From Aurantimonadaceae bacterium (lineage in GTDB: Bacteria > Pseudomonadota > Alphaproteobacteria > Rhizobiales > Rhizobiaceae), in contig CANJKV010000013.1 in NCBI GenBank assembly GCA_947474855.1, positions 1 through 43,207 on the forward strand: 43,207 bases of DNA. Direction: 5' to 3'. Of the stretch, positions 4,967 through 18,919 are shown piece by piece (position 1 is the stretch's first letter; the number at the start of each line of letters is the position of its first letter). The translations under genes were made by a program, and so were the position numbers. The notes beneath the pieces were generated by a model. That model did not search any database and was not told the origin of the DNA. It saw only the letters and a program-made list of their open reading frames with translations.

Positions 4967-5743
4967 TCAGGCGGGATCCCGTTCCTCGAAGAAGCGTGAC
5001 GGGGTCGTACCGAAGGTCGATCGGAAGCTGGCGATGAAACCGCTCGCGTTCCCGTATCCCACATCGAGGGCCGTCGAGGCGACGCTCGCGCCGGCAGCGA
5101 GGTGCTCCAGCGCCGCGAGCATGCGCATGCGCAGTCTCCAGGCGCCGACGCCCATGCCCGTGTCCCGAAGGAACAGGCGCTCGAGCGTCCTCTCGCTCGC
5201 TCCGGCCTCCCTCGCGATCGCGCCGATGGGGCGGCGGTCGGCCGGATCGCGCCTCATGGCGTCCGCCGCCGCGCGTGCCCGCGGGTCCGTGGGCTCCGGC
5301 ACGTGGATCGGCTCCTGCGGCAGGAGCGCCAGACGATCGAGCAGCACGCGGACGAGTCGCGCCTCGGGTCCGTCCGCGGCGTAGGTCCAGGGCAAGCCGA
5401 CGGAGGCGACGATCAGTTCGCGGACCAGGGGCGGCACGCCCAGAACCGCGCAGTCGTCGCGATGGCCGACTCCCTCCATGTCCGGGGCGAAGTAGAGGGT
5501 CCTCAGCATCAGCGGCCGCGCGTTCGACATGGCGTGCAAGGTGCCGGGCGGCACCCAGAGGGCACGGCCCGGCGGCAGCACCCACCGTCCCCGGTCGGTC
5601 GAGACCGTCATCGCTCCCCGCACGGCGTAGACGAGCTGCGCACGGCGGGCATGCGCATGGGCGGGCACCTCGCCCGGCTCGAAATCATAGGCGTATCCGA
5701 CGACCGGCGCTGCCGCGCCGTCCGGATCCATGGATGGCCGCAT
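4967..5743 (-). CDS. AraC-family transcriptional regulator with N-terminal cupin
   Basis: A protein of about 258 residues. The N-terminal cupin region (HAHARRAQLVYAVRGAMTV, then WVPPGTLHAM) is followed by a two-HTH AraC domain in the last 100 residues (IGAIAREAGASERTLERLF and STALDVGYGNASGFIASFRS, ending TPSRFF). Such regulators sense a small molecule with the cupin and activate or repress transcription. The ATG at 5743 has GGAG at good distance; an alternative ATG at 5827 would overlap the coxG-like stop by ATGA but lacks a ribosome-binding site. It is the last gene of the catabolic unit, or it may have its own promoter in the 80 bases behind coxG. Confidence 0.88.
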   Translation of the reverse strand: MRPSMDPDGAAAPVVGYAYDFEPGEVPAHAHARRAQLVYAVRGAMTVSTDRGRWVLPPGRALWVPPGTLHAMSNARPLMLRTLYFAPDMEGVGHRDDCAVLGVPPLVRELIVASVGLPWTYAADGPEARLVRVLLDRLALLPQEPIHVPEPTDPRARAAADAMRRDPADRRPIGAIAREAGASERTLERLFLRDTGMGVGAWRLRMRMLAALEHLAAGASVASTALDVGYGNASGFIASFRSTFGTTPSRFFEERDPA

Positions 5744-5823
5744 CCACTCGCTCCAAGGATCATCCCGCGGCCGTCCTAGGCCCTTGGCTACGGGGCGTCC
5801 ACGCCCCGGAGCTTCCGGGATCA

Positions 5824-6294
5824 TCATCCCGCGAGGGCCGGGCTCCCGGCGGCGGCCCGATCGCGGATCCTGCGGTCCAGGTTGGCGAAGAACTGCTGCG
5901 CGAGCTTCTGCGCCGTCGAGTCGATCAGCCGGCCGCCCAGTTGAGCGAGCTTGCCCCCGACCTTGGCCTCGCTGTCGTAGGTGAGGAGCGTGCCGTCTCC
6001 ATCGGGCGCGAGCCGAACGTCTGCCCCTCCCTCGGCGAATCCCGCGATGCCCCCCGCTCCCTTGCCGGAAATCCGCAGGGCGTTCGGCGGCACGAGGTCG
6101 GTGAGCATGACATCTCCCTTGAACGTCGCCTTGACCGGACCGACCTTCAGCACGACCGACGCCGTGTAGCCGTCGCCCGAGCGCTCGAGGGCCTCGCAGC
6201 CCGGGATGCAGGCGCGCAGCGTCTCCGGGTCGTTGACGAGCGCCCAGGCATCCTCGACGCTGCATTCCAGTCTCTGCTCGCCGCTCAGCTTCAT
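5824..6294 (-). CDS. CoxG-like SRPBCC protein
   Basis: A 156-residue protein of the carbon monoxide dehydrogenase subunit G family (SRPBCC/START fold): MKLSGEQRLECSVEDAWALV, the segment NDPETLRACIPGCE, and the Gly-rich GKGAGGIAGFAEGGADVRL. CoxG-type proteins accompany molybdenum hydroxylases and are thought to help membrane attachment or maturation rather than to carry a cofactor. This one lacks a C-terminal membrane helix, unlike longer CoxG proteins. The ATG at 6294 follows GGGAGGAAGGCG. It belongs to the same minus-strand unit as the hydroxylase genes, and its presence with them supports one common pathway. Confidence 0.88.
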   Translation of the reverse strand: MKLSGEQRLECSVEDAWALVNDPETLRACIPGCEALERSGDGYTASVVLKVGPVKATFKGDVMLTDLVPPNALRISGKGAGGIAGFAEGGADVRLAPDGDGTLLTYDSEAKVGGKLAQLGGRLIDSTAQKLAQQFFANLDRRIRDRAAAGSPALAG

Positions 6295-6354
6295 CGCCTT
6301 CCTCCCTTCTGAGCTTTCGGCGGGAGACAATGGCTCCCGCCGACCGGATCCGTG

Positions 6355-8361
6355 TTACCCGGCAAGGGCGGCGGCGCGCTCGGCGATCGCGTCCGCGTCG
6401 GGAATGATCGCGGCCTGTAGCACCGGGCTGACGGGCATCCGCGTGTCGGGCGTCGTCAGGCGTTCGATGCGCAGGGACGAGTCGTTCCCGGCCGCCTCGC
6501 GGATTCGGAACGCGACCTCCCCGGCAAACCCGCCGCTTCGCACCGCCTCGTGCACGATGAGGACGCGCCCGTTCGCGGCGCGAACGACGTCGGCGAGCGC
6601 TTCCTCGTCCAGGGGATTCAGCCAGCGCAGGTCGAGAACCGAGGCCTCGACGCCCCGCTCGGCAAGCTTCTCGGCGGCTGCCAGGGCCCTCGGCACCATG
6701 GTGCCCCAGGTCACGATGGCCACGTCGCCGCCAGAACGGCGAAGGCGTGCCTTGCCAACGGGCTCGGCGCCCTCGGTCAACTCCACCGTCGACTTCGCCT
6801 GATAGAGGCCGCGCGCTTCGATGACGACGCAGGGGTCCGGGTCGGCGGCCGCGGCGCGGAGCAGCGCGTAGGCGTCGGTGGCCGACGCTGCGAGCGCCAC
6901 CTTGAGGCCGGGCACATGGGCCAGCATCGCCTCGATGCACTGTGAGTGCTGGGCACAGGACCCCGGCGTGGCGCCCTGCTGGGTGCGCACGACCATCGGA
7001 ACCGACGACTTGCCGCCCGTGATGTAGCGGATGTTGGCGGCCTGGTTCACGAGCTGGTCGAGGGCCACGAAGATGAAGTCGGCCCACATGATCTCGACGA
7101 TCGGCTTCATGCCAGCCACCGCCGCGCCGACGGCGGAGCCGAGGATCGCGTTCTCGGCGATCGGGGTGTCGAACACCCGGTCGGCGCCGAAGTCGCGCTG
7201 GAGGTAGCGGCTCGCCTGGAAAATACCACCGCCCTTGCCGACGTCCTCGCCGTAGACGAGCGTGTTCGGGTCGTTCTCGAGCTCGGCGCGCAGCGCGGCG
7301 CCGACGGCCTCGATGAAGGACATCTCCTTGGTCTCGACGACGCGCGGAGCGGCCGCGACCTTCGGCTCCGCGACCACATGCAGGATCGCGTTCGACGCCT
7401 TCGGCTCCGGTGAGGCCATCACCTCCTCACCCATCTCCTCGGCGCGGCGCTCCTCGGAGGCGCGGAGCTCGGCGACCTCCGCCTCGCTCATCAACCCCGA
7501 CTCGACGAGGCGGCGGGACAGGAGCGTGAGGGGATCGATCTCGGTCGCCGCCTGTCTGTCGGCCTTCGAGCGATAGTGCTCCATGTCGCGGTTGTAGTGG
7601 CCCCAAAGGCGGGGCACGCGGAACTCGATCAAGCTCGGACCGTCGCCCTTGCGCGCACGCTCAGCGGCCATTGCGACGGAGTCGCGAACGACGACGGGGT
7701 CGGTGCCGTTGACCGTCGCGGACGGCATGGCGTAGCCCGCGGCGCGCTGGGCAATGCGGTCGACAAGGAACATGTCGGAGGTGGCGGTCAACTCGGACCA
7801 CCCATTGTTCTCGACGACAAAGATGACGGGCAGCTTGCGCACCGAGGCGAAGGCGAGCGCCTCGTGGACGGAGCCCTGGTTCATCGCGCCGTCGCCGACG
7901 GTGACGATCACGACGCGACCGTTGCCCTTGGCGACGTTGGCCATCGCGACGCCGCAGGCCATCGTGGTCCCGGCGCCGACGATGGAGTTCTCGCCGATGA
8001 AGCGGGTATGGGGCGCCATGAGGTAGGCGGAGCCGCCGCGGCCGCCGTTGACGCCGCCTTCTCGCTGGCAGATCTCGGCCATCACCGAGCGCGCGTCGAG
8101 CCCGGAGGCAAGGGCCCAGCCGTGACCGCGGTAGGTGCAGATGACCTGGTCGTCGTCCCGGAGCGCCGCCATGGCGCCGAGCGGAACCGCCTCCTGTCCG
8201 GCGCACAGGTGCATCGAACCCATGACGCGCGGCGGGTTGGTGTGGGACAGGGACTGCACCTTCGCCTCGACGGCGCGGATGAAGGCGATCTCGCCCAGCA
8301 TCTGCCGGGCAAAGTTGTGGTCCTCGTCCCGGATGGGGACGACCTTCGCGACTGCGCTCAT
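6355..8361 (-). CDS. Fused alpha-beta thiamine-diphosphate E1 dehydrogenase
   Basis: A 668-residue protein joining both E1 subunits of a 2-oxo-acid/acetoin-dehydrogenase-type enzyme. The alpha part (about 1-330) has the TPP motif GDG at 156-158 with NN at 185-186. A charged linker follows, then the beta part from Met347 (MSFIEAVGAALRAELENDP, VYGEDVG, PIAENAILGSAVGAA). E1 decarboxylates a 2-oxo acid or cleaves a diketone on TPP. No lipoyl E2 or E3 gene lies in this unit, so it may use a housekeeping E2/E3, work like acetoin-cleaving AcoAB, or act with another acceptor. GGGAGAG precedes the ATG. The substrate is unknown; pyruvate dehydrogenase proper is unlikely in this context. Confidence 0.88.
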   Translation of the reverse strand: MSAVAKVVPIRDEDHNFARQMLGEIAFIRAVEAKVQSLSHTNPPRVMGSMHLCAGQEAVPLGAMAALRDDDQVICTYRGHGWALASGLDARSVMAEICQREGGVNGGRGGSAYLMAPHTRFIGENSIVGAGTTMACGVAMANVAKGNGRVVIVTVGDGAMNQGSVHEALAFASVRKLPVIFVVENNGWSELTATSDMFLVDRIAQRAAGYAMPSATVNGTDPVVVRDSVAMAAERARKGDGPSLIEFRVPRLWGHYNRDMEHYRSKADRQAATEIDPLTLLSRRLVESGLMSEAEVAELRASEERRAEEMGEEVMASPEPKASNAILHVVAEPKVAAAPRVVETKEMSFIEAVGAALRAELENDPNTLVYGEDVGKGGGIFQASRYLQRDFGADRVFDTPIAENAILGSAVGAAVAGMKPIVEIMWADFIFVALDQLVNQAANIRYITGGKSSVPMVVRTQQGATPGSCAQHSQCIEAMLAHVPGLKVALAASATDAYALLRAAAADPDPCVVIEARGLYQAKSTVELTEGAEPVGKARLRRSGGDVAIVTWGTMVPRALAAAEKLAERGVEASVLDLRWLNPLDEEALADVVRAANGRVLIVHEAVRSGGFAGEVAFRIREAAGNDSSLRIERLTTPDTRMPVSPVLQAAIIPDADAIAERAAALAG

Positions 8362-8409
8362 GCTTTCTCTCCCATGGGTGCGGAAGGCTTTGCCGTTCCG
8401 CTTGATGCT

Positions 8410-9105
8410 TCAGGTCCGGTGGGGCACGGACGCGGTCCGGTCACGGAACCCGACGGTCGTCTCCCGTTCACCGACCGTCACGTCGATCGCCTCGACGTAC
8501 TCGGGCTCGCCCGGGTCCGCGTCGAGCAGGTAGGCCGTCACGAAGGCCCGCAGGACGGGCGAGTGCGTCACGCACACGTAGCGGGTGCCGTCGCTTTCCG
8601 GGCGGTCTGCGAGGCTGCGGCAGAAGGCCATGATGCGCCGGGCCACCGCGCGTCCGTCCTCGCCGGGCGGTTCGGCGTGATTGAGCCAGAAGCCGATGCG
8701 GTCGGGTGCCGAGATGAACTCGCGGAAGAAGCCGACCCGCTCGACGTCCGGCTCGGACAAGAGGCCGGCCGGAAGCTGGTCGACGTAGGCCTTCGCGCTC
8801 GACACCATCTCGACGCGGTGCCCGGCGAGCAGGACGTCGGGATTGCGGATCGCCCATTCCGGCCGCGCGGGCACGAGCTCGGCTTGCCCAGCGGTCATCG
8901 CGAGGAGCCCGCGCAACCCCTCGGCGGTGTCCCGGGTGCGGCGCGTCGCGGTCGACAGGAACTCGACACGTCCGCCTTCGCCGACGAGGGGTGCGAGGCG
9001 GTCCGCCGCCCGCTCGATCTCAACGTTGGCGTTGGCCGAGAGGGGTACGTCGCCACGGTGCGAGTCGACGCGTCCGTGCCGCAGGAGGTGAACGACGACG
9101 CTCAT
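8410..9105 (-). CDS. Histidine phosphatase family protein
   Basis: A 231-residue member of the phosphoglycerate-mutase-like superfamily. The phospho-accepting RHG is at residues 9-11, followed by the family's second basic region (FLSTATRRTRDTAEGL), and the late catalytic His sits in CVTHSPVLRAF. These enzymes remove phosphate from small metabolites. Its ATG overlaps the stop of the iron-sulfur subunit gene by ATGA, so it is firmly part of the operon. Because the operon also encodes a dikinase-like phosphotransferase, it is a fair inference that it dephosphorylates a pathway intermediate. Nothing in the sequence names that compound. Confidence 0.82.
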   Translation of the reverse strand: MSVVVHLLRHGRVDSHRGDVPLSANANVEIERAADRLAPLVGEGGRVEFLSTATRRTRDTAEGLRGLLAMTAGQAELVPARPEWAIRNPDVLLAGHRVEMVSSAKAYVDQLPAGLLSEPDVERVGFFREFISAPDRIGFWLNHAEPPGEDGRAVARRIMAFCRSLADRPESDGTRYVCVTHSPVLRAFVTAYLLDADPGEPEYVEAIDVTVGERETTVGFRDRTASVPHRT

Positions 9106-9572
9106 GCGGCGACCTTCTCATCGCGTAGCATCCCCGCCGCGAGGCGGACCGCGTCGGCGATCTTCACGTAGCAGCCGCAACGGCAGATGTTGCCTGCCAG
9201 GGCCTCGGCGATCTCGTCGTCCGTCGGATCGGGGTTCTCGTCGAGGAAGGCACGGGCCGTCAGGATCATCCCCGGCGTGCAGTAGCCGCACTGGAACGCG
9301 TTCGCCTTTTCGAACGCGACCTTGACCGGGTCGTCGGACGGAACGCCCTCGATCGTGGTGACCTCCTTGCCGTCGGCAAGGCCAACGGGAAGGATGCAGC
9401 TCGCCGTGGTCTGGCCGTCGACGATGACGGTGCATGTCCCGCAAAGGCCGATGCCGCAGGTGCCGCGAACGCTCGTCAGCCCGACCTCGTCCCGGAGGAC
9501 GTTCAGCAGCATGTCCTTGCCGTCGACGCCAAGCGCGGTCTCGGTACCGTTCAGGTGAAGGGTGCAGTTCAT
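9102..9572 (-). CDS. Molybdenum hydroxylase, small [2Fe-2S] subunit (CoxS/XdhC-N type)
   Basis: A 156-residue two-cluster ferredoxin subunit. The plant-type [2Fe-2S] ligands are Cys39, Cys44, Cys47 and Cys59. The second cluster in the four-helix domain uses Cys95 and Cys98 (FQCGYCTPGMIL) with Cys130 and Cys132. The subunit passes electrons between the Mo site and FAD. An oddity is NICRCGCY where most relatives have CRCTGY, which adds Cys134 beside the second cluster. It overlaps by ATGA with the large-subunit gene upstream and with the phosphatase gene downstream. The length is normal for the family. Confidence 0.95.
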   Translation of the reverse strand: MNCTLHLNGTETALGVDGKDMLLNVLRDEVGLTSVRGTCGIGLCGTCTVIVDGQTTASCILPVGLADGKEVTTIEGVPSDDPVKVAFEKANAFQCGYCTPGMILTARAFLDENPDPTDDEIAEALAGNICRCGCYVKIADAVRLAAGMLRDEKVAA

Positions 9573-11668
9573 TCCGCGGCCTCCAGTTCCCGTGTCCCGG
9601 CCTGCGCATCGCGCTCGTCGATGGCGTCGAGGATCCGCTCCGGCGTCATGGGCAGAGAACGGGGACGGATGCCGAACGACTGGAGAGCGTTGCCGATGGC
9701 GGCCGGGATGGGCGGCAACGCCGTCTCGCCCAACCCGTGGACGGGAGCGCCCTCGCGTTCCACCAGGTCGTGCGTGATCCGCGGCAGGTCCGTGATCGAG
9801 GGGACGTTGTAGTCGGACAGGTTGGCGTTCATCACCTGGCCGTCGGCGAAGTCGATGCTCTCGAAGAGCGAGGTGCCGAGGCCCATGATGATCGAGCCCT
9901 CGTTCTGGAGCTCGGCCGCGGCCCGCACGACGACCTTCCCCGCATAGACCGAGGCATGGACGTGGCGGACCTTCATGCTCCCCGTCTCCTCGTCGACCTC
10001 GACGACGGCGCCGGCCGCGCCCTGGTGCCAGTGTGACGAAGCGATGCCCTGGCCCGTGTCGGGATCGAGGCCTCCCTGGTCGGCGACCTCGCCGACCCCG
10101 GTGCGTCCGTCCTCCCGGAGGTTGCGGACGGCTTCCACGAGCGCCCGGCTCATCATGTGCGTCGAGCGCGAGGAGGTGGTGCGGGTGTCGTAGGGCGAGA
10201 CGTCGGTGTCGGGATCGGGGAAGGACACATCGTCCACGCCGACGCCGAGTAGCTCGGCGGCCATCGTGCGGATCGCGTAGCGTGCGCCCTGACCCATCTC
10301 GACGGTGGCGCAGCGCACCCGGTACGTGCCGTCCTCGAGCGCGTCGACGGCAACGGAGGCGCGGCTCGGGGTCTGCATCCCCTTCATCAGGACGCAGAGG
10401 CCCTTGCCCTCGCGTCCCTCGTTCCAGCCGATCGCCTCCGCCGCGTTGCGCAGGCACTCCTCGAAGGCCACGTCGTGCATGACCTCCCCGGTCGCGTAGG
10501 CGTCGCCCTCGCGAAGGAGGTTTTTCAGGCGCAGCTCCAGCGGGTCGATGCCGAGCCTGTCGGCCATGATGTCCATGGTGCGCTCGGAGGCCCAGATCGA
10601 CTGCATCTGGCCGTAGCCGCGGTAGGCCCCGTTGGGCGGCGCGTTCGTGTAGACGCAGTGCGAGTCCACGTGGACGTTCGGGATCCGGTACGGACCCGGC
10701 GCCGCGAAGCCCATCTTCTGGGCGACCCCGGGCCCGCAGTCCGCGTAGGCCCCGGTGTCCGCATGGCAGGTGACGGTCTTGGCGACGAGCGTCCCGTCCG
10801 CCTTCGCCCCAAGCCGCACCGTGATGCGGGAGGGATGGCGGTTCAGGGTCTGCCACTCCTCGGCCCGGTCGAGAACCATCTTGATCGGGCGGCCGGCCTT
10901 GCGCGCCGTCGCGGCGGCGAGGCCCTCGAGCCGAACGAAGGTCTTGGCGCCGAACGAGCCTCCCATGGGCGGGCAGACGACGCGGACGCGCGACTGGTCG
11001 ACGCCGAAGATCGCGGCGAGATCCATGCGGACGTTGAAGGGCGTCTGCGTGCCGGACCAGACCTCGAGTCGGCCGTCGTCCGTCCAGCGCGCCAGCGTCG
11101 CGTGCGGCTCCATCGGCACGTGTGCGGCGCCGTCGGTCGTGAAGGTCTCCTCGACCACGACGTCGGCCTGCGCGAACCCCGCCTCGACGTCCCCATGCCG
11201 GATGCGGAAGCGATGGCACACGTTGGACCCGTCGACGGGTCGGATGCCGAAATAGGCCGCGTCGTTCTCCGAGACGTGGTGACGCTCGTGGACGAGCACG
11301 GCCCCGTCGGCAACGGCGTCCTCGATCCCGAAGACGGCGGGCAGTTCCTCGTAGTCGACCTCCACCAGGGCAAGCGCCGCGTCCGCGAGACGGCGCGTCG
11401 GGGCGGCAACGACCGCCACCGGGTCTCCGACGAACCTCGCCTCGCCTCGCGACAACACGGCCTCGTCGCGGATCTGACAGCCGTACATCGACAGGTCGGC
11501 GACGTCGTCGGGGGTCAGGAGGACGGTGTTCTCGGGAAGGGCCGAACCGTCGATCGAGACGACCCGGGCGTGGGCATAGGGGGACCGGACGATCCGGGCG
11601 TGCCACATGCCCTCGACGGCGACGTCCTGTGAGTAGCGCAGCGAGCCCCCGCTCCTGGGATCAGCCAT
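9569..11668 (-). CDS. Molybdenum hydroxylase, large molybdopterin subunit (CoxL-like)
   Basis: A 699-residue catalytic subunit of the xanthine-oxidase family, which hydroxylates a carbon next to a ring nitrogen or carbonyl with water as oxygen source. Seen are GGSFGAK at 236-242, the cofactor segment AYRGYGQMQ at 348-356, and the catalytic Glu648 in HGLGETALPPIPAAIGNAL. The CO-dehydrogenase active-site string AYRCSFR is absent (AYRGYG instead), so this is not form I CO dehydrogenase but a hydroxylase of unknown substrate. It is slightly shorter than typical CoxL. It overlaps the medium-subunit gene by eight bases and the small-subunit gene by four. Confidence 0.93.
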   Translation of the reverse strand: MADPRSGGSLRYSQDVAVEGMWHARIVRSPYAHARVVSIDGSALPENTVLLTPDDVADLSMYGCQIRDEAVLSRGEARFVGDPVAVVAAPTRRLADAALALVEVDYEELPAVFGIEDAVADGAVLVHERHHVSENDAAYFGIRPVDGSNVCHRFRIRHGDVEAGFAQADVVVEETFTTDGAAHVPMEPHATLARWTDDGRLEVWSGTQTPFNVRMDLAAIFGVDQSRVRVVCPPMGGSFGAKTFVRLEGLAAATARKAGRPIKMVLDRAEEWQTLNRHPSRITVRLGAKADGTLVAKTVTCHADTGAYADCGPGVAQKMGFAAPGPYRIPNVHVDSHCVYTNAPPNGAYRGYGQMQSIWASERTMDIMADRLGIDPLELRLKNLLREGDAYATGEVMHDVAFEECLRNAAEAIGWNEGREGKGLCVLMKGMQTPSRASVAVDALEDGTYRVRCATVEMGQGARYAIRTMAAELLGVGVDDVSFPDPDTDVSPYDTRTTSSRSTHMMSRALVEAVRNLREDGRTGVGEVADQGGLDPDTGQGIASSHWHQGAAGAVVEVDEETGSMKVRHVHASVYAGKVVVRAAAELQNEGSIIMGLGTSLFESIDFADGQVMNANLSDYNVPSITDLPRITHDLVEREGAPVHGLGETALPPIPAAIGNALQSFGIRPRSLPMTPERILDAIDERDAQAGTRELEAAE

Positions 11669-12476
11669 GGTGGGTCTCCTCGATGGCGCGGCGGACCTCG
11701 ACGGCGACGACGCGGCGGCGGTACTCGGCGGAACCGCGCGCGTCCGACAGCGCATCGATGCGCCCCGCATACTCGTCCGCGATCTCGCGGGGCGAGGCGC
11801 CCATCCCGCAGACGTCCGGGAAGAACTGCGGCTGCATGGCCGCGGCACCGACCACGACGCGCAGCCGGCCGGAGTGCCTGGCGGCCGCGACGGACACGCA
11901 GGGCCGGTCCTCGTGCGAGCGGGTGCGGAACTTGCGGTAGACGGCGGCCTCGTGGCCGCCGGGCACCACGACGGAGGTCAGGAGTTCGTCCGACCCGATG
12001 GCCGTCTCGTAGAGGCCGAGGATGAAATCCTCGACGGGCAGCTCGCGGCGCCCCCGCGGGCCCTCGAGCACCACGCGCGCGCCGAGCGCGGCGAGCATCG
12101 AGGGCGGGTCCGAGGCGTAGTCGGCGTCCGCAAGCACGCCGCCAACGGTGGCCCGGTTGCGGATGCGGGGCGACGCGACGAGCGAGAACATGTGGGCGAG
12201 CGCCGGCCACAGGCGGCGAACCTCGGGGTGGTTCTCCACTTCACGGTGGGTCACCATCGCTCCGAGCGTCAGTTCTCTCCCGATCTCGATGCGCCGCAGC
12301 TCCGGCACGTCGCGAAGCGACAGCATCGCCTCGGGCGCGAGCACACCGTTGTTGATCAGGACGCCGAGGAAGGTTCCGCCGGCGACAACGACGGTCTCGT
12401 CGCCATAGTCCTCGCGGAGGTCCAGCGCCTCGCGCAGGGACCGGGGCGCGTGCCAGTGGGTCGCCGCGCCCGTCAC
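11661..12476 (-). CDS. Molybdenum hydroxylase, medium FAD subunit (CoxM-like)
   Basis: A 271-residue FAD-binding subunit. AGGTFLGVLINNGV (residues 32-45) is the first FAD pyrophosphate loop, ATVGGVLADADYASDPP (109-125) the second, and the C-terminal third is the CO-dehydrogenase flavoprotein C domain. It takes electrons from the iron-sulfur subunit. The GTG at 12476 overlaps the stop of the ATP-grasp gene (GTGA), which fixes the start; no ATG fits. The gene order medium-large-small is that of many uncharacterised alphaproteobacterial hydroxylases. Confidence 0.92.
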   Translation of the reverse strand: MTGAATHWHAPRSLREALDLREDYGDETVVVAGGTFLGVLINNGVLAPEAMLSLRDVPELRRIEIGRELTLGAMVTHREVENHPEVRRLWPALAHMFSLVASPRIRNRATVGGVLADADYASDPPSMLAALGARVVLEGPRGRRELPVEDFILGLYETAIGSDELLTSVVVPGGHEAAVYRKFRTRSHEDRPCVSVAAARHSGRLRVVVGAAAMQPQFFPDVCGMGASPREIADEYAGRIDALSDARGSAEYRRRVVAVEVRRAIEETHHG

Positions 12477-13297
12477 AGCGTGGTCACCGGGCGCGACTGG
12501 AGCAGGTGGACCGAGCCGGCGGCGATCGCCCACTCGATGTCCTGGGGGCGGCCGAAGTGCTTCTCGAGGCGATCCGCCAGCGTCGCCAGGTCGACGAGCT
12601 CCTCGGGCGTCAGCACGCCGCCATGGACGAGGTTCTCCTTCTTCGAGACGCCCTTGCGGTCGACGACGTAGTGGTCCGGCGTCACCTCGCCCGAGACCAT
12701 CTGCTCGCCGAGGCCGTACACCGCCTCGATCAGCATGCGGTCCCGTCGCTTCGTGACCGGATGGACGGAGAACACGACGCCCGCCTTCTCGGCGTCGACC
12801 ATGCGCTGGACGACGACGGCCATGCGCAGGTCGTCGAGCGAGCCCTTCTCCGAACGATAGAAGAGCGCGCGTTCGGAGAAGAACGACATCCAGCACTCGA
12901 CGACGCGCTCGCAGACCTCGTCCTCGCTGGACACGTTCAGGAACGTCTCCTGCTGCCCGGCGTAGCTGGCGGCCTCGGAGTCCTCGGCGCAGGCCGAGGA
13001 ACGGACGGCGACCTTGCCGCCGCCGAGTTCACGGTAGGCGGCGAGGATCTCGTCCCGGACGCCGTCTGCCGCCTGGACGAGGAGCTGGCAGCCCTTGTGG
13101 TCGCGCTCACGGGCCAGGGACCGGAGGCGCTCCACATCGAGCGAGGACTCCATGACGTGCGACGGGATCACGAAGCCGCCGGGCACCGGCAGACCTTCGG
13201 CAGCCATGTTGGCGAGGCTCGCGCCCTTGCCGCCCGCGACGGAGACATCGCGGCACTCCGGTTCAGCGAACCAGACGATGTTGCGCCCGGCGCCCAT
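12473..13297 (-). CDS. PEP-synthase-like ATP-grasp subunit (N-terminal half as separate protein)
   Basis: A 274-residue protein equal to the nucleotide-binding half of PEP synthase/PPDK. It has GGKGASLANMAAEGLPVPGGF (first Gly near residue 21), the ATP-grasp motifs AVRSSACAEDSEAASYAGQQ, and the domain end DIEWAIAAGSVHLLQSRP. It should cleave ATP and hand a phosphoryl group to the His of the partner encoded at 14677-16410. Free-standing halves of this kind occur in phenylphosphate synthase of anaerobic phenol degraders and in some uncharacterised clusters. The ATG at 13297 overlaps the cyclase stop by one base (TGATG). It is somewhat shorter than the usual domain of about 330 residues. Confidence 0.9.
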   Translation of the reverse strand: MGAGRNIVWFAEPECRDVSVAGGKGASLANMAAEGLPVPGGFVIPSHVMESSLDVERLRSLARERDHKGCQLLVQAADGVRDEILAAYRELGGGKVAVRSSACAEDSEAASYAGQQETFLNVSSEDEVCERVVECWMSFFSERALFYRSEKGSLDDLRMAVVVQRMVDAEKAGVVFSVHPVTKRRDRMLIEAVYGLGEQMVSGEVTPDHYVVDRKGVSKKENLVHGGVLTPEELVDLATLADRLEKHFGRPQDIEWAIAAGSVHLLQSRPVTTL

Positions 13298-14016
13298 CAG
13301 CCGACGATCCCAACCGCGCGCACGGGGGCGCCCGTGGTCCCTTCCCACTTGATGGGGAAGACGGAGAGCTTGAAGCCGTGGCTTGGCAGCTTGTCGAGGT
13401 TGGTCAGGTTCTCGAGGTGCCAGTAGTCCTCGTCGATCATGACCTTGTGGGCGTGCCAGAACTCCTTGCGCTCGAACATCGCCCAGACAGGGGGGTCGAA
13501 GGTCGGCGCGTCGGTGCCCATCATGCGCACGCCCTTGGAGATGAGCCAGCGCGTGGCCTCGTCGGTCATGCCACAGTGGTCGGTGATGTAGCGGGGCTCG
13601 TGGTTGTAGGCCGAGGCTCCCGTCTGGATCAGGACGATGTCCTTCTCCTTCAGGGTGTAGCCGATCTTGGCCAGCGCTCCCTCGAGGTCGGCGACGGTGA
13701 TGCCCGCGCCCTTCTCCAGGTGACGGAAGTCGAGGACGACGCCATCAGAGAAGCAGTAGTCGAGGGGGATGCCCTCCGGGCCGGGGGCATCGGGCCCCCG
13801 CATGTGCTTGACCGCGTCGACGTGGGTGCCGGCGTGGTCGGAGTGGCTGACAGTGTAGTGGGCGGTCAGCCAGTTCTCGCCGTGCTCACCGGCGCCGATG
13901 TTCGTCGCGAACTCCTGCCAGCTCTCGGTCATCTTGATCTGCGGCGGCGTAACCCGCGGGAAGGTCATCATGCCCTCCTTCACGGTCATGGAGAGGTCGA
14001 TCAACTGCTGTGCCAT
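13297..14016 (-). CDS. Cyclase-family metal-dependent hydrolase (KynB/isatin-hydrolase-like)
   Basis: A 239-residue protein of the cyclase/kynurenine-formamidase family. The metal site reads HAGTHVDAVKH with ligands His61, His65 and Asp67, followed by His71; LIDLSMTVKEGM is the usual start. Members hydrolyse amides or lactams such as formylkynurenine and isatin, and some act on cyclic esters, so here it probably opens a ring or cleaves an amide. GGGAAGG lies about 9 bases before the ATG, inside the end of the GntR frame. It sits between the two dikinase halves, which argues that phosphorylation and hydrolysis belong to one route. Confidence 0.9.
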   Translation of the reverse strand: MAQQLIDLSMTVKEGMMTFPRVTPPQIKMTESWQEFATNIGAGEHGENWLTAHYTVSHSDHAGTHVDAVKHMRGPDAPGPEGIPLDYCFSDGVVLDFRHLEKGAGITVADLEGALAKIGYTLKEKDIVLIQTGASAYNHEPRYITDHCGMTDEATRWLISKGVRMMGTDAPTFDPPVWAMFERKEFWHAHKVMIDEDYWHLENLTNLDKLPSHGFKLSVFPIKWEGTTGAPVRAVGIVG

Positions 14017-14671
14017 GGCTTCTGCCTTCCCGGATCAACTGTCCGAAGGTTTCGACGTGGACGCGCATCTCCCTGGCGGCCCTCACGGGGTCGCGGGCCT
14101 TCAGCGCGTCGAGGATCGGCCGGTGCATCTGCGCGACGCGCATCAGGCCGTGGTCGGCGATCATGACGGCGACGGCCGTCACGAGGGTTCGTTGCTCGAT
14201 CATCAGGCCGCCCCACGTGTCCATGAGGATCCGGTTGCCGGCGGCCTCGACGATCAGTCGGTGGAAGTCGGCGTCGTGCGCCACGAGGTCCTGGACGTGG
14301 TTGCGCTCGGCGGCCTCCACCATCGCCCCGTAGACGAACTCGAGCTCGCCGATCTGGCCGTTGAGGCGACGGGCGGCGAGCGTTCCGGCGAGTTCCTCGA
14401 GGGAGGCGCGGACCGGGTAGATCTCGGCGAGTTCGTTGGGATCGATCCGCCGGACCCGCGCGCCCTTGTAGGGTTCGGTTTCGAGGAAGCGCATCGACAC
14501 GAGGTCCCGGATCGCCTCCCGCACGGGCGACTGGCTGAGGCCCAGCTCGCGCGCGATCTGGGATTCGACCAGACGGTCGCCCGGCTGGTACTCCCCGGCG
14601 AGGATGCGGTTGAGCAGGGTTTCCTTGACCTGCTCGCTCAGGACCTTGGGACTGATCATGCCGTGCTTCAC
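13886..14671 (-). CDS. GntR-family regulator (FadR/FCD type)
   Basis: A 261-residue regulator. The winged HTH at about 10-75 has VESQIARELGLSQSPVREAI, and the FCD ligand domain follows with the metal-binding pattern D-x3-H (HDADFHRLIVEAAGN) and a later His in MHRPILDAL. It begins with GTG at 14671 (an ATG at 14659 is possible). The last roughly 45 residues after QLIREG are not part of the fold and are read from the other frame of the cyclase gene, giving a 131-base overlap that is long for two genuine genes. It is probably the substrate-sensing repressor of the unit, acting on the paired palindromes at 16554-16587. Confidence 0.9.
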   Translation of the reverse strand: MKHGMISPKVLSEQVKETLLNRILAGEYQPGDRLVESQIARELGLSQSPVREAIRDLVSMRFLETEPYKGARVRRIDPNELAEIYPVRASLEELAGTLAARRLNGQIGELEFVYGAMVEAAERNHVQDLVAHDADFHRLIVEAAGNRILMDTWGGLMIEQRTLVTAVAVMIADHGLMRVAQMHRPILDALKARDPVRAAREMRVHVETFGQLIREGRSHGTAVDRPLHDREGGHDDLPAGYAAADQDDRELAGVRDEHRRR

Positions 14672-14676
14672 CGTGT

Positions 14677-16410
14677 CTAGGACAGGATGTCCACGACGCC
14701 CGTCGTGCCGTTCACGCGGACGCGGTCACCCGTCTTGATCTGCTGGGTGGCGTAGGACGTGCCGACGACCGCGGGAAGACCGAACTCGCGAGAGACGACC
14801 GCGGAGTGCGAGGCGCTGCCGCCCGCGTCGGTGACGAGCCCGGAGATCTTGGTGAAGAGGACGACCCAGGCGGGGTTCGTCATGCGGCAGACCAGGATCT
14901 CGCCGTCCCGCACCTCGTCGAAGTCGTCGAGCGACATGACGAGGCGCGCGCTGCCCTCGACGACGCCCGGCGACGCGGCGAGGCCCTTGATCTCGCCCGT
15001 CTTCGTCGGCGGCTCGCGGTAGAATTTCTCGGGGAAGCCCCAGAGCGAGGCGTACGGGAAGGCCAACGCCTCCTCCGTCGCCGTGCCGACCCACTCGGGC
15101 GGACGGACGGCGGACTGCTCCTCGCGCAGGTCCCGGCGCTCGGAGGCGAGCTCGCGGGCATCATAGGCCGCCGGATCGCCGATCAGTGCCCGCAGCTCGT
15201 TATAGCGAAGGAACATCACGTCCTCGGGGTCGTCGACGACCCCTGCCGCGACCAGCTTGCGCCCGATGGCGAGGAGGACGGTTCGAAGGCGCGCGTTCGT
15301 GCCCTGGTCGATGAAGAAGTGGTGGTCCGGCGTCAGGGGATTCATCTTCAGCGACTGATCGAGCGCGCTCTGAAGACGGTCCCGGTCGGCTCCCTCGGGA
15401 ACGCCGTCCATCAGCTCGCGGACCGCATCGTCGAGGTCCTTGCGCACGGCGGCGATTGTCTTCGGGTAGTCGTAGTCGGTCAGGAGGTAGCCGCGAACCG
15501 CCTCGATGATCGGGCCGGGGTTCTCGCGCCACAGCGGGAACACGACCTCGTGCGACCAGATCGACTTGTGGCCGAACTCCTCCTGGTAGGGCTTCAGGCG
15601 GTCCCGGACGAAGGCGCGTCCAGCCTCGGTTCCCTCGAGGGCCTGGACGACCTCCTTCGAGGTCGCCGCCTGGAAGGCCTTGGTCAGGTCGGCGTCGCCC
15701 TTCACCAGCTCCTTCATGCGCCAGAGCGCCTCGATCGAGTCCCAGTTCCGGTCCTCAACCGAGTTCTGGAGGCGCCCGGCGAGCTCCGGGGGGGCGTCCT
15801 TGCGCAGCTCGGCGATCGCCCCGTTCAGCGCCATGGTGGCGGAGAACTGGGAGAAGTTCAGCATCCAGTGGATCTTCCAGTGGCGATCGTGGATGTCGAT
15901 GGCGTCCTCGAGCAGGATCGCCAGCGCCGTCAGGCTCGCGCTCTCGGTGTCGAAACCGTCGATGTAGGCGAAGTTGCGCTCGATCTCCGGACGGATGCGG
16001 CCCTGCCACCAGTCCATGAAGTTCTCGGCGTAGTGCGGGAGCACCGCGCCCATGTAGGCGCCGATCTTGCCCGCATACTGAGGATCGCTGGGTACGCGGG
16101 GCACGTAGCGCGCCTGGAACTCGCTGGACTCGGCGCGAAGGGTCGAATCCGCCGGGATGGCCGCCGTGTAGAGGTAGCCGTTGATGTTCTTGGAGATCCA
16201 ATCGCTGGCGAAGGGCGTGCCGAAGCGGCGGAACATGTGGTCGCAGGTCAGCCACCAGCCGCCGATGTCGTAGAACATGGGCGACATCGGGTTCGGACAG
16301 TGGACATCGTCCAGGATCCAGAAAAGCTCGCGCTCCCCTTCCTTCCAGTCGATCGGGAATTCGTTGCTGCCATGGAACGCGCCGAGCGCGATCGGACCAT
16401 TTCCGTCCAT
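14677..16410 (-). CDS. PEP-synthase-like mobile/phosphohistidine subunit
   Basis: A 577-residue protein. The first about 440 residues form a large domain with little similarity to known catalytic domains (for example HCPNPMSPMFYDIGGWWL near the start). The last about 110 are the swivelling phosphohistidine domain: IKGLAASPGVVEGSARLV, then TDAGGSASHSAVVSREFGLP with the phospho-acceptor His535. It would shuttle phosphate from the ATP-grasp partner to a substrate bound by the large domain, as in phenylphosphate synthase or rifampicin phosphotransferase. There is no PEP-synthase C-terminal barrel, so PEP synthesis itself is unlikely. The ATG at 16410 has GGAGG at ideal spacing. First gene of the unit. 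Confidence 0.87.
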   Translation of the reverse strand: MDGNGPIALGAFHGSNEFPIDWKEGERELFWILDDVHCPNPMSPMFYDIGGWWLTCDHMFRRFGTPFASDWISKNINGYLYTAAIPADSTLRAESSEFQARYVPRVPSDPQYAGKIGAYMGAVLPHYAENFMDWWQGRIRPEIERNFAYIDGFDTESASLTALAILLEDAIDIHDRHWKIHWMLNFSQFSATMALNGAIAELRKDAPPELAGRLQNSVEDRNWDSIEALWRMKELVKGDADLTKAFQAATSKEVVQALEGTEAGRAFVRDRLKPYQEEFGHKSIWSHEVVFPLWRENPGPIIEAVRGYLLTDYDYPKTIAAVRKDLDDAVRELMDGVPEGADRDRLQSALDQSLKMNPLTPDHHFFIDQGTNARLRTVLLAIGRKLVAAGVVDDPEDVMFLRYNELRALIGDPAAYDARELASERRDLREEQSAVRPPEWVGTATEEALAFPYASLWGFPEKFYREPPTKTGEIKGLAASPGVVEGSARLVMSLDDFDEVRDGEILVCRMTNPAWVVLFTKISGLVTDAGGSASHSAVVSREFGLPAVVGTSYATQQIKTGDRVRVNGTTGVVDILS

Positions 16411-16877: not shown

Positions 16878-17822
16878 ATGAAGACCGTCATCGTTGGCAC
16901 CGGCCTGATCGGCCGTGCCTGGGCCATCTCGTTCGCCCGCGCCGGGCACGAAGTGATGTTATGGAATCGCCGTTCCCAAGGCTGCGCGGAGGCTCTCGCC
17001 TACATCGAGCAAGCCCTTCCCGAGCTGGCCCGCCAGGACCTCCTGCGCGGACTCCAGCCATCCGAGGTGCTCGCCCTCGTCAGCGCCGCAAACGACCTGG
17101 AGGCCGCGGTCGCCGATGCCGACTGGATCCAGGAGAACCTCGTCGAGAGCGTCGAGGCGAAGAAGGAGATTTTCTCGAGGCTGGACGCGGCGGCGAAGGC
17201 CGACGCGATCATCGCGAGCTCGACCTCGGGCATCGTGCCCTCGCTGTTCACGGACGACCTTCCCGGTCGGCACCGTTGTCTCGTGGCCCATCCCCTGAAC
17301 CCGCCGTACCTGATGCCTGCCGTCGATCTCGTGCCGGCCCCTTGGACGTCGCCGGAGACGATGGAGCGCGCCGCCGACGTCATGCGGGCCAGCGGCCAAG
17401 TGCCGATCGTCATGAAGCGCGAGGACACGGGGTTCGTGACGATCCGCATGCAGGGCGCGATCTATCAGGAGGCCTTTCGCCTGGTCGCGGACGGCCTCGC
17501 CTCGCCCGAGGATGTCGACGTCGCCGTCCGCGAGGGGCTGGCCCTGCGCTGGTCGTTCATCGGCCCCTTCGAGACGGCGGACCTCAACGCGCCGAACGGC
17601 ATCCGCGACTTCGTCGAGCGCTACCGCGGCCTCTACGACACCCTCGCCCGTCGCGATGGGCCCGTAGCGTGGGACGGCGCCCTCCTCGACGGTATCGAGG
17701 CCGACCGGAGGGGCAAGCTGCCGATGGAGGACCACAAGGCCCGGCAGCGTTGGCGCGACGGTCGCCTGATGGCGCTCGCGGCCCATAAGGTGGCGCGCTC
17801 AAAGGCGGAGGCATCGTCGTGA
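16878..17822 (+). CDS. 3-hydroxyacyl-CoA dehydrogenase family protein (lambda-crystallin/L-gulonate dehydrogenase-like)
   Basis: A 314-residue NAD(P)-dependent dehydrogenase. The Rossmann GTGLIG is at 7-12, SSTSG with Ser115, and the catalytic stretch has His138 and Asn141 in HPLNPPYLMP. The segment LVPAPWTSPETME matches the short 3-hydroxyacyl-CoA-dehydrogenase relatives that oxidise free hydroxy acids or carnitine. At the end of the second strand, where NAD enzymes have Asp, it has Asn30 followed by two Arg (LWNRR), which could favour NADP. The ATG follows GGAGAG. It overlaps the next gene by GTGA, and it faces away from the hydroxylase operon across the shared control region. Confidence 0.87.
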   Translation: MKTVIVGTGLIGRAWAISFARAGHEVMLWNRRSQGCAEALAYIEQALPELARQDLLRGLQPSEVLALVSAANDLEAAVADADWIQENLVESVEAKKEIFSRLDAAAKADAIIASSTSGIVPSLFTDDLPGRHRCLVAHPLNPPYLMPAVDLVPAPWTSPETMERAADVMRASGQVPIVMKREDTGFVTIRMQGAIYQEAFRLVADGLASPEDVDVAVREGLALRWSFIGPFETADLNAPNGIRDFVERYRGLYDTLARRDGPVAWDGALLDGIEADRRGKLPMEDHKARQRWRDGRLMALAAHKVARSKAEASS

Positions 17823-18919
17823 GGGTCGTCCGCGTCGAGACGGCGGAGTGCAAGCTGCCCCTGCCACGTCCCATCAGGCTCGGCCCCGTGGAAATCCGCA
17901 CGCGCGACTTCGTCGTCCTTCGGCTGACGGCAGACGACGGGACGACCGGGGATGCCCTTGCCTATCCGCGGGGTGGCCCCCTCCTCGAGGCGACCGCCCG
18001 GATGGCTCACGGCGTCGTCGGCAAGGATGCCGACATGCGTCGAGCGACGGTGGACGGCTTCCTCCAGAACCACGTCAACAACCGCGCCGGATACGTGAAG
18101 GCCGCGAGCCTGTTCGACATCGCGTTGTGGGACCTCGCCGCCAAGCGTGCGGGCCTGCCGCTCCACAGGATGCTCGGCGCCGTCAGGACGAGCGTTCCCG
18201 TGATGGTGGTCGCCGGCTACTACCTCGACCAGCGAACGGTGGCCGACGTCTGCCGGGAGGTCGGCGAACTGTGTGATGCGGGCTACCAACGCATCAAGAT
18301 CATGATCCTCGGCAACGACCCGGCCTTCGACGAGAAGCTCGTGCGCTCGGCGCTTGCGATCGCAGGCGATCGTCTGTGTGTCGACGCGCACTGGGCGTTC
18401 CGCTCGGTACCGGAAGCCCTCCATACGCTTCGCCGCCTTGACGGGCTCGGCCTGCGATTCGTCGAGGATCCCTTCGGGCCCTTCCAGGCGACCCTCTATC
18501 CCGAACTCCAGGCGGCCATGCGCACGCCGCTCGGGTCCGGCGAGGACCTGTCGGATCCCCACGACCTTTTCGCACTGTCACGCAGCATCTCCGTGCTGCG
18601 CGTCGACGCGACGACCTGCGGCGGCATCACGGCCGCGCAGTCGGTGGTGGAGGCGGCGTCGCTGTCGGGTCGCTCGGTTCTGCCCCACGTGTTCCTGCCC
18701 GTGCACGCGCAGTTGGCCGGCGCCCACAGGGCGATCGACGCCGCCGAGTACATCCCGGTGGAAAGCGGCGCGTGCCCGATGTTCGACCTCCTCGAGGGCA
18801 AGCCCGACATCGAGGGCGGCACGCTGCGCATCGACCAGCGGCCGGGTGCCGGATTCACGTTGGACTGGGCGGCGGTGGAGCGGTACGCCGCGACCCGGGG
18901 AGAAACGGTCGAAGCCTGA
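17819..18919 (+). CDS. Mandelate racemase/enolase superfamily enzyme
   Basis: A 366-residue enolase-superfamily protein of the mandelate-racemase subgroup, which abstracts a proton next to a carboxylate for racemisation or dehydration. Barrel residues can be read: Lys160 (in QRIK, so the first Lys of the usual K-x-K is Arg), Mg ligands Asp189 (CVDAHWAF), Glu216 (FVEDPFGP) and Glu242 (SGEDLSD), and Asp263 with His290 (VLPH) as the Asp-His dyad. The GTG start overlaps the upstream stop codon. With the dehydrogenase it forms a two-gene unit suited to a hydroxy or sugar acid. The exact reaction is unknown. Confidence 0.88.
   Translation: MRVVRVETAECKLPLPRPIRLGPVEIRTRDFVVLRLTADDGTTGDALAYPRGGPLLEATARMAHGVVGKDADMRRATVDGFLQNHVNNRAGYVKAASLFDIALWDLAAKRAGLPLHRMLGAVRTSVPVMVVAGYYLDQRTVADVCREVGELCDAGYQRIKIMILGNDPAFDEKLVRSALAIAGDRLCVDAHWAFRSVPEALHTLRRLDGLGLRFVEDPFGPFQATLYPELQAAMRTPLGSGEDLSDPHDLFALSRSISVLRVDATTCGGITAAQSVVEAASLSGRSVLPHVFLPVHAQLAGAHRAIDAAEYIPVESGACPMFDLLEGKPDIEGGTLRIDQRPGAGFTLDWAAVERYAATRGETVEA

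Follow-up and report, generated by a model that had tools for sequence, protein, structure and literature searches.

Two-component dikinases have been described as starting the catabolism of phenol, 4-cresol and hydroxyphenylethanone, which gives phosphorylation of a phenol as a first catabolic step a precedent (PMC12167813, PMC9618137). One of them, HpeHI, is reported to be rifampin-phosphotransferase-like in architecture and fold (PMC12167813), and its authors state that the reason why aromatic catabolism sometimes spends ATP on a phenol is unclear (PMC12167813, PMC9618137). Here we analyse a minus-strand gene series (positions 4967 to 16410) on contig CANJKV010000013.1 of assembly GCA_947474855.1, a draft genome of an Aurantimonadaceae bacterium (5.48 Mb, 415 contigs); the window is the whole 43,207-nucleotide stretch analysed. 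The series joins a split dikinase to a molybdenum (Mo) hydroxylase, a histidine phosphatase and a cyclase-family hydrolase, all of them families with precedent. We give about an even chance to the reading that it encodes a phosphate-primed ring-opening pathway, in which a hydroxyl group would be phosphorylated, the ring hydroxylated, the phosphate removed, the ring opened and the chain cut.

Comparisons were made across 28 rows, comprising the window, Thermomicrobium roseum (T. roseum) and 26 genome loci from a pattern scan that took one genome for each species. These rows are not independent: many come from Thermomicrobia or Rhodobacteraceae, and L030 and L035, two contigs of one metagenome-assembled genome (MAG), look like a single locus in two pieces. 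Some absences from a row reflect contig ends or the ends of the stretch examined, and others hold genome-wide.

The split dikinase

A PF00391 protein, the swivel subunit (PEPut), and a PF01326 protein, the ATP-grasp subunit (PPDK_N), stand in one gene series, the layout of a two-component dikinase. The predicted catalytic residue of PEPut, His535, lies near the C-terminus within GGSASHSAV, which has the expected form GGx..(S/C)H, and is invariant in the 20 members aligned. Strict motif patterns missed the PEPut of L016, L017, L020 and L022, as well as the first-His motif of the histidine phosphatase (HisP) in all members. PPDK_N carries the motifs GGK, VAVRSSA and QSRP.

In a Foldseek search with the AlphaFold2 model of PEPut (pLDDT 84.9, pTM 0.85), ranks 1 to 6 were all chains of rifampin phosphotransferase (RPH; best E 1.1e-20, TMq 0.48-0.67), and TMq fell to 0.15 at rank 7; among the best 50 structural matches listed, RPH chains alone align over the full length of PEPut with TMq >0.2. 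The Pfam scan of PEPut returned PF00391 alone, with no C-terminal phosphoenolpyruvate (PEP)/pyruvate-binding barrel domain. Assignment as PEP synthase or pyruvate phosphate dikinase was rejected because the swivel subunit lacks this PEP-binding domain.

Trees were built from 14 of the 28 PEPut rows and 11 of the 22 module PPDK_N rows, the latter trimmed at nine loci to at most the last 345 residues; both have long branches, with a program warning. In the swivel tree the window clade (14 rows) has support 100/99, and the Pps-, Cre- and Hpe-type, L071 and haloarchaeal rows form one separate clade (100/100). The ATP-grasp tree again recovers the window clade (11 rows, 99/97), the remaining rows not forming one clade. 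The window dikinase thus falls outside the characterised aromatic-kinase clade (PpsA, CreH, HpeH), and, given the long branches, its separation is safer than any sister relation. The labels of the tree rows were assigned from gene neighbourhoods: L007 lies beside ppc genes (Pps-type), L066 and L067, from Rhodococcus, carry P450 and HD genes (Cre-type), and L065 has biotin carboxylase genes and a HAD phosphatase-type gene (Hpe-type). From its sequence, the window pair is classed as a two-component small-molecule dikinase with a clade of its own.

Two further loci from the same order, L073 (9400-12287) and L074 (8276-10749), hold another well-separated two-part dikinase clade with a swivel subunit of ~545 aa; a gene for a 3-hydroxyacyl-CoA-dehydrogenase-like protein (3HAD) lies nearby in L074. 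Tm-1-like (UPF0261) ATP-binding proteins are encoded beside two-part dikinases of different clades (L005 7490-9593, L031 14575-17086, L069 14089-15489, L070 5095-6378), and that of T. roseum is accompanied by a PF09370 protein.

Mo hydroxylase, cyclase and phosphatase

The Mo hydroxylase has the three subunits of the xanthine oxidase family, carrying the molybdenum cofactor (CoxL), FAD (CoxM) and two [2Fe-2S] clusters (CoxS), with the Pfam domains given in Table 1. CoxL, whose GLGE motif we take to be catalytic, is 70% identical in L010 and L016, and its closest solved chains are 4-hydroxybenzoyl-CoA reductase alpha and nicotinate dehydrogenase; the gene contexts of its relatives indicate no clear substrate. 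The Anaerolineae locus L031 (4-17086) has no CoxMLS match and an aldehyde:ferredoxin oxidoreductase (AOR) instead, together with PGK, GAPDH-like and lactate-racemase-like genes. On an Agrobacterium plasmid, L104 (2800-6774) encodes two Mo-hydroxylase-type subunits, CoxG, BKACE, a thioesterase and a cyclase-family protein; no dikinase is annotated in that stretch, and the neighbours are annotated as a dioxygenase and a maleylacetate reductase.

The cyclase is 61-71% identical among 15 aligned members from four phyla, in which H61, G63, T64, H65, D67, H71 and F19-P20-R21 are invariant. It contains the HxGTHxD metal motif (HAGTHVD in the window), and the top structural match of its model (pLDDT 75.9) is isatin hydrolase A. 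Isatin hydrolase recognises its substrate through Ile32 and Leu34 (PMC10470551). This stretch aligns with the F-P-R of the module, whose position in the pocket is suggested by alignment only, residues 13-25 being modelled with low confidence. F-P-R does not occur in the other cyclases aligned, namely five from plasmids, two from L071 (where the alignment has a gap) and two second cyclases; an invariant Arg21 would suit an anionic substrate.

HisP has the motifs LLRHG and, around its second His, THSPV. An HD/DUF4202-like protein appears to take its place elsewhere: each occurs in 11 of the 28 rows, never together, and six rows have neither. The HD assignment in T. roseum rests on a DUF4202 match just below the cut-off and a conserved HD pair, and the L071 homologue of this protein likewise gives DUF4202 and HD matches below cut-off. 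In L022 (5331-6890) an HD/DUF4202-like protein is fused to a second PF04199 cyclase, as checked with Pfam in that locus, and L021 (12549-14150) encodes a protein 87% identical to it; in L016 and L017 a second cyclase (Cyc2) immediately precedes HisP. The fusion and the adjacency place dephosphorylation next to ring opening. Phosphatase-type genes also stand beside other dikinases, namely HD with P450 in Rhodococcus, HAD in the Hpe-type locus and metallophosphoesterase in haloarchaea. The haloarchaeal plasmids L006 and L008 pair a two-part dikinase and the metallophosphoesterase with Rieske dioxygenase and aldehyde dehydrogenase genes, another combination of phosphate and oxidation.

Distribution and conservation

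The set has relatives in Paracoccaceae, Actinomycetota, Thermomicrobiota and Chloroflexota, and a T. roseum plasmid bears one that is 52-55% identical. GntR was matched in 25 of the 28 rows (the family is large, and these need not all be orthologues), PPDK_N and a phosphatase of any kind in 22 each, the cyclase in 20, CoxL at >=50% identity in 15, CoxG in seven (five of these 25-30% identical), and 3HAD with the enolase-superfamily enzyme (MLE) in two; AraC had no match in the other 27 rows.

The closest parallel is L010, in the Paracoccaceae MAG IP29b_bin.62, which reads CoxG, GntR, CoxM, CoxL, CoxS, HisP, MLE, 3HAD, PEPut, a second GntR, cyclase, PPDK_N and E1, with CoxG and E1 reaching the ends of the stretch. 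Its members are 44-76% identical to those of the window (E1 76%, MLE 61%, 3HAD 59%) and differ in gene order. When 3HAD and MLE are counted, L010 has relatives of all thirteen window genes except AraC, and two rearranged clusters with the same twelve gene kinds are strong evidence of functional linkage. The order PEPut-GntR-cyclase-PPDK_N-CoxM-CoxL-CoxS is collinear in the window and the actinomycetotal loci L016 and L017, after which the window continues with HisP-E1-CoxG-AraC and the other two with FAH-ABM-Cyc2-HisP. Thermomicrobia loci hold most of the same parts in different orders. In the Chloroflexi genome of L019, PEPut-GntR-cyclase is cut off within the cyclase where the contig ends; a different contig has the C-terminal part of a cyclase (79% identical), PPDK_N (64%) and CoxL (67%).

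Six genomes had examined stretches without PPDK_N, and four of them (L013, L019, L020 and L026) carry it elsewhere; that of L020, whose contig identity is unconfirmed, probably lies just beyond the stretch by its coordinates. None was found at E<=1e-40 in HR27 (L029) or HR26 (L030), and L035, another HR26 contig, has a partial PPDK_N at 62% identity. The CoxL of L022 is on a separate contig. A contrast set of 13 loci with other two-part dikinases has PEPut and PPDK_N; at E<=1e-8 none of these loci matches the module cyclases, and CoxL is present in L071 alone. Chance neighbourhood was rejected, as the same parts occur together in four phyla.

The sequence-only reading of this DNA had named lack of conservation beyond close strains as what would speak against a joint function, and this is not what was found. 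The set does not characterise its order: the swivel subunit is present in one of the 61 nearest genomes (E<=1e-80) and one of 385 genomes sampled from the class (E<=1e-100), in both cases the window's own. The runner-up across 397 genomes of the order has E 2e-58 and 32% identity over partial length. In the swivel tree the window sits with Paracoccaceae rows, and this group is joined, less firmly, by Actinomycetota and one Chloroflexota row. Such a grouping, combined with rarity nearby, is what a module that moves horizontally would produce.

The end of the gene set varies most. The thiamine pyrophosphate (TPP)-dependent E1, a headline part in the sequence-only reading, has both E1 halves and the GDG...NN TPP-binding motif, and neither E2 nor E3 is encoded among the eleven genes; the contexts of its relatives indicate no clear substrate. 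A close orthologue occurs only in L010 (two of 28 rows, counting the window), on which ground E1 was rejected as a core part. The halves in L031, which are split and lie between PPDK_N and the cyclase, are 35-40% identical. FAH occurs in 14 rows, none of which has a close E1 as well, and the small ABM-family protein in 15. Two likenesses, each scoring below cut-off, hint at diketo-acid chemistry: that of FAH to 2,4-didehydro-3-deoxy-L-rhamnonate hydrolase and that of ABM to LsrG. BKACE was matched at E<=1e-100 in three rows (L020-L022) and not in the window; L020 and L021 carry it together with FAH, and that of L022 (PF05853) has as its best NCBIfam match 3,5-dioxohexanoate:acetyl-CoA acetone transferase (314 bits, cut-off 430). 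E1, FAH with ABM, and BKACE are alternative or additional end modules.

Proposed pathway and alternatives

In the proposed pathway the two-subunit dikinase would move the beta-phosphate of ATP, via the swivel phosphohistidine, onto a phenolic or enolic hydroxyl group of a cyclic, probably heteroaromatic substrate. With its electron-rich oxygen masked, the ring could become electrophilic enough for the CoxMLS-type Mo hydroxylase, which would add an oxygen derived from water. HisP, or the HD-type enzyme in other lineages, would then strip the phosphate, and the Mn-type PF04199 cyclase would open the resulting lactam-, lactone- or 1,3-dione-like ring by hydrolysis. The open-chain oxo acid would pass to the lineage-specific end module, here the fused E1, 3HAD and MLE, elsewhere FAH with ABM, or BKACE. 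None of the core steps would need an oxygenase. The sequence-only reading had the substrate activated by phosphorylation or hydroxylation; phosphorylation is the best reading, and the two are more likely successive than alternative.

We infer the order of the steps, the chemistry of each and the substrate class from direct observations of gene content and order, families, active-site motifs, conservation and replacement patterns, and from the predicted dikinase fold. The Mo hydroxylase and the parallel with 3-hydroxypyridine catabolism favour a hydroxylated heterocycle as substrate, the parallel with phloroglucinol favours a 1,3-dihydroxybenzene, and 3-hydroxy-4-pyranones are a conjectural possibility. 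The link between this dikinase clade and a Mo hydroxylase suggests an answer to why ATP is spent: a phosphorylated ring would be poorer in electrons, which would allow the nucleophilic Mo hydroxylase to act. It is possible, if rather short of probable, that the logic is an undescribed one, with phosphate as a removable activator for a Mo hydroxylase and ring opening without O2, a dikinase-Mo pairing that arose with two separate dikinase clades, and a module that spreads between phyla. L071, too, combines a Mo hydroxylase, an SRPBCC protein and an HD-like protein with a dikinase, in this case one from outside the window clade.

Several observations weigh against this pathway. Five of the six genomes searched for the cyclase gave no match at E<=1e-20 (L012, L013, L018, L023 and L026, mostly draft MAGs), so the cyclase is not obligatory to the set, and two other PF04199 genes close to the L071 dikinase count against an exclusive cyclase link. 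A close CoxL (E<=1e-100) was missing from eight of ten genomes (L011, L013, L014, L015, L018, L023, L026 and L031); L011, L012, L014, L015 and L018 have distant Cox subunits alone, farther from the dikinase, and L023 gives a weak CoxM match. The HD assignment depends on DUF4202 and HD matches that lie barely under curated cut-offs, HisP could act instead as a phosphohistidine phosphatase on the dikinase, and the end modules are so unlike that lineages may not all form the same open-chain product. Every single absence from a draft genome is uncertain. Taken together, the genome-wide gaps leave dikinase and phosphatase as the firmest part of the module; cyclase and Mo hydroxylase are frequent, yet replaceable or lost, chiefly in Rhodobacteraceae. 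Roseibaca ekhonensis CECT 7235, a named strain, has a form of the module that lacks both the cyclase and a close CoxL.

Mo hydroxylases act by nucleophilic attack, which suits an electron-poor heterocycle better, and this argues against the nearest competing explanation, a di- or trihydroxybenzene of the resorcinol, hydroxyquinol or phloroglucinol kind as substrate. The cyclase would then cut a cyclic 1,3-dione by a retro-Claisen reaction, as dihydrophloroglucinol cyclohydrolase does, followed by the 3-hydroxyacid dehydrogenase and a beta-keto cleavage step. The window does contain a cyclase and 3HAD, L020-L022 add BKACE, and cyclases 33-37% identical to the window's adjoin BKACE in at least six of the 60 plasmid matches listed, two of these being near-identical Shinella plasmids. 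However, BKACE is confined to those three rows, and the invariant F-P-R is missing from both BKACE-linked cyclases aligned, which leaves a carbocyclic substrate a doubtful, if serious, candidate.

Several genomes retain dikinase and HisP but have neither the cyclase nor a close CoxL, and these would also fit a dikinase that acts late, on the open-chain oxo acid in the manner of PEP synthase, while HisP works on the swivel phosphohistidine like SixA and the Mo enzyme attacks an unphosphorylated ring. PEP synthase has the same swivel domain, and histidine phosphatases acting on phosphohistidine exist. We consider this improbable: the swivel subunit has PF00391 with no pyruvate/PEP-binding domain, the high-TM structural matches listed are all RPH, and HisP is swapped for an unrelated HD-type protein, which forms a fusion with a cyclase in L022 and in the near-identical L021 copy.

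A close relation to 3-hydroxypyridine catabolism was weighed through a proxy, L071 (1483-11720, from the same order). L071 is likely a 3-hydroxypyridine cluster, with a dikinase pair, CoxM, SRPBCC, a fused CoxS-CoxL, an HD/DUF4202-like protein and a 2,5-dihydroxypyridine dioxygenase (E 1e-93 to the solved enzyme). That the module follows this pathway, or a close derivative yielding 2,5-dihydroxypyridine, is suggested by the same kinds of part (dikinase pair, CoxMLS and a separate SRPBCC) and by the HD/DUF4202-like protein that T. roseum and L071 have in common. Yet the window dikinase lies outside the swivel clade containing that of L071, the CoxL proteins are ~28% identical, and the L071 dioxygenase has no tblastn match in the 28 rows or in the window's genome, where an empty result proves little. 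Orthology with the 3-hydroxypyridine cluster was rejected on tree position, CoxL distance and the missing dioxygenase, and we hold the pathway itself to be very unlikely here.

Equally remote is a reductive Mo enzyme that removes the aryl or enol phosphate by dehydroxylation, as 4-hydroxybenzoyl-CoA reductase removes a hydroxyl group: the alpha subunit of that reductase is among the best solved and NCBIfam relatives of CoxL, and AOR stands in its place in L031, but the family score is far under the cut-off (390 of 995 bits) and a separate phosphatase would be redundant.

Gene content and borders

Table 1. Genes of the series and of its divergent neighbours, in window positions.
Feature	Positions	Strand	Evidence
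PEPut, substrate-binding and swivel subunit of split dikinase (HpeH/CreH/PpsA-like)	14677..16410	-	PF00391 E 2.5e-24
GntR/FCD-family regulator	13886..14671	-	PF00392, PF07729
PF04199 cyclase, Mn-type isatin-hydrolase fold, proposed ring-opening hydrolase	13297..14016	-	PF04199 E 7.5e-34
PPDK_N, ATP-grasp subunit of split dikinase (HpeI/CreI/PpsB-like)	12473..13297	-	PF01326 E 1.7e-73
CoxM-type FAD subunit of Mo hydroxylase	11661..12476	-	PF00941 E 5.1e-43
CoxL-type molybdopterin subunit	9569..11668	-	PF02738, PF20256, PF01315; GLGE motif near C-terminus
CoxS-type [2Fe-2S] subunit	9102..9572	-	PF01799, PF00111
HisP, proposed remover of priming phosphate	8410..9105	-	PF00300 E 6.4e-12
Fused alpha-beta TPP-dependent E1, proposed C-C cleavage of ring-opened product, lineage-specific	6355..8361	-	PF00676, PF02779, PF02780
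CoxG/SRPBCC, separate fourth Mo hydroxylase component or maturation factor	5824..6330 (alternative ATG start 6294)	-	PF06240 E 4.4e-36
AraC-family regulator with cupin-type sensor	4967..5827	-	PF12833, PF02311
3HAD, NAD enzyme, PRK06129 family, beyond reported span	16878..17822	+	NF004783 422 bits, cut-off 347
MLE (MR/MLE), acid-sugar-dehydratase-like, beyond reported span	17819..18919	+	PF13378, PF02746

All eleven minus-strand frames are open, intact and tightly packed, and each protein, AraC included, has Pfam matches above curated cut-offs (Table 1). The eleven genes of the sequence-only reading therefore stand, as do its two regulators and, by Pfam, NCBIfam and structure matches, its parts: the split dikinase, Mo hydroxylase, phosphatase, fused TPP E1 and a metal-dependent hydrolase of the isatin-hydrolase/arylformamidase family. 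The span it gave was too short, since the two divergent genes at 16878-18919 very probably belong to the unit, L010 holding the same set in another order. For MLE the closest NCBIfam model is talarate/galactarate dehydratase, with a score under the cut-off.

That nearly every junction overlaps was slightly too strong: seven of ten do, by 131, 1, 4, 8, 4, 4 and 4 bases, and three are gaps of 5, 48 and 24 bases (60 instead of 24 if CoxG uses its later start). A GTGA overlap joins PPDK_N to CoxM, and CoxS has a 4-base overlap at either end. The 131-base overlap is due to the GntR frame, which continues into the cyclase gene (13886-14016) and gives a product of 261 aa whose final ~44 residues lie past the FCD match; the T. 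roseum counterparts of these two genes show no overlap. The GC content of the series is 69%, against 66% to the left and 67% to the right, and codon-position composition is strongly coding for those of the eleven genes that were sampled.

Comparison with known systems

A pairing of this dikinase clade with a Mo hydroxylase and a cyclase was not found described in the open-access literature searched, which is not the whole literature. The sequence-only view that no characterised pathway has this set thus holds for the full combination, but the relevant pathways are known in part. The module is a defined set of genes, present in named strains (T. roseum DSM 5159, Thermomicrobium sp. CFH 73360, Thermalbibacter longus CFH 74404), and offers a means of finding the compound and of studying hydrolytic ring opening.

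HpeHI, CreHI and PpsAB, which act on acetovanillone, 4-cresol and phenol, resemble the window dikinase in having ATP-grasp and substrate/swivel subunits, the catalytic-His motif, an RPH-like fold and adjacent or nearby genes. They differ in the enzymes that come next, a carboxylase or P450 in place of Mo hydroxylase and cyclase (the 4-cresol pathway reportedly has P450 and phosphatase steps), and the window belongs to a separate clade, its swivel subunit being 25% identical to that of the Pps-type L007.

The catabolism of 3-hydroxypyridine in Ensifer adhaerens HP1 is said to use HpdA1-A4, a four-component Mo hydroxylase, with a PEP-utilising protein and a dikinase. Its proxy L071 shares with the window the dikinase pair, Mo hydroxylase and separate SRPBCC, and with the Thermomicrobia form the HD/DUF4202-like protein. 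In contrast to L071, the module is without the 2,5-dihydroxypyridine dioxygenase, its CoxS and CoxL are separate, its sequences are distant, and it has its own cyclase and E1 or FAH. The text of a physiology paper on Agrobacterium DW-1 contains neither 'dikinase' nor 'PEP'.

With the anaerobic phloroglucinol pathway of Clostridium scatologenes (PGR, DPGC, TfD, TAL) the module has in common a cyclase-family hydrolase, a 3HAD-like enzyme and, in three loci, BKACE; the window adds dikinase, Mo hydroxylase and phosphatase, has no BKACE match, and its cyclase carries its own F-P-R. Rifampin phosphotransferase, finally, has the same domain plan and fold as the window dikinase (for the fold see also PMC12167813), but it is one chain that inactivates an antibiotic, whereas the window encodes two chains within a catabolic series.

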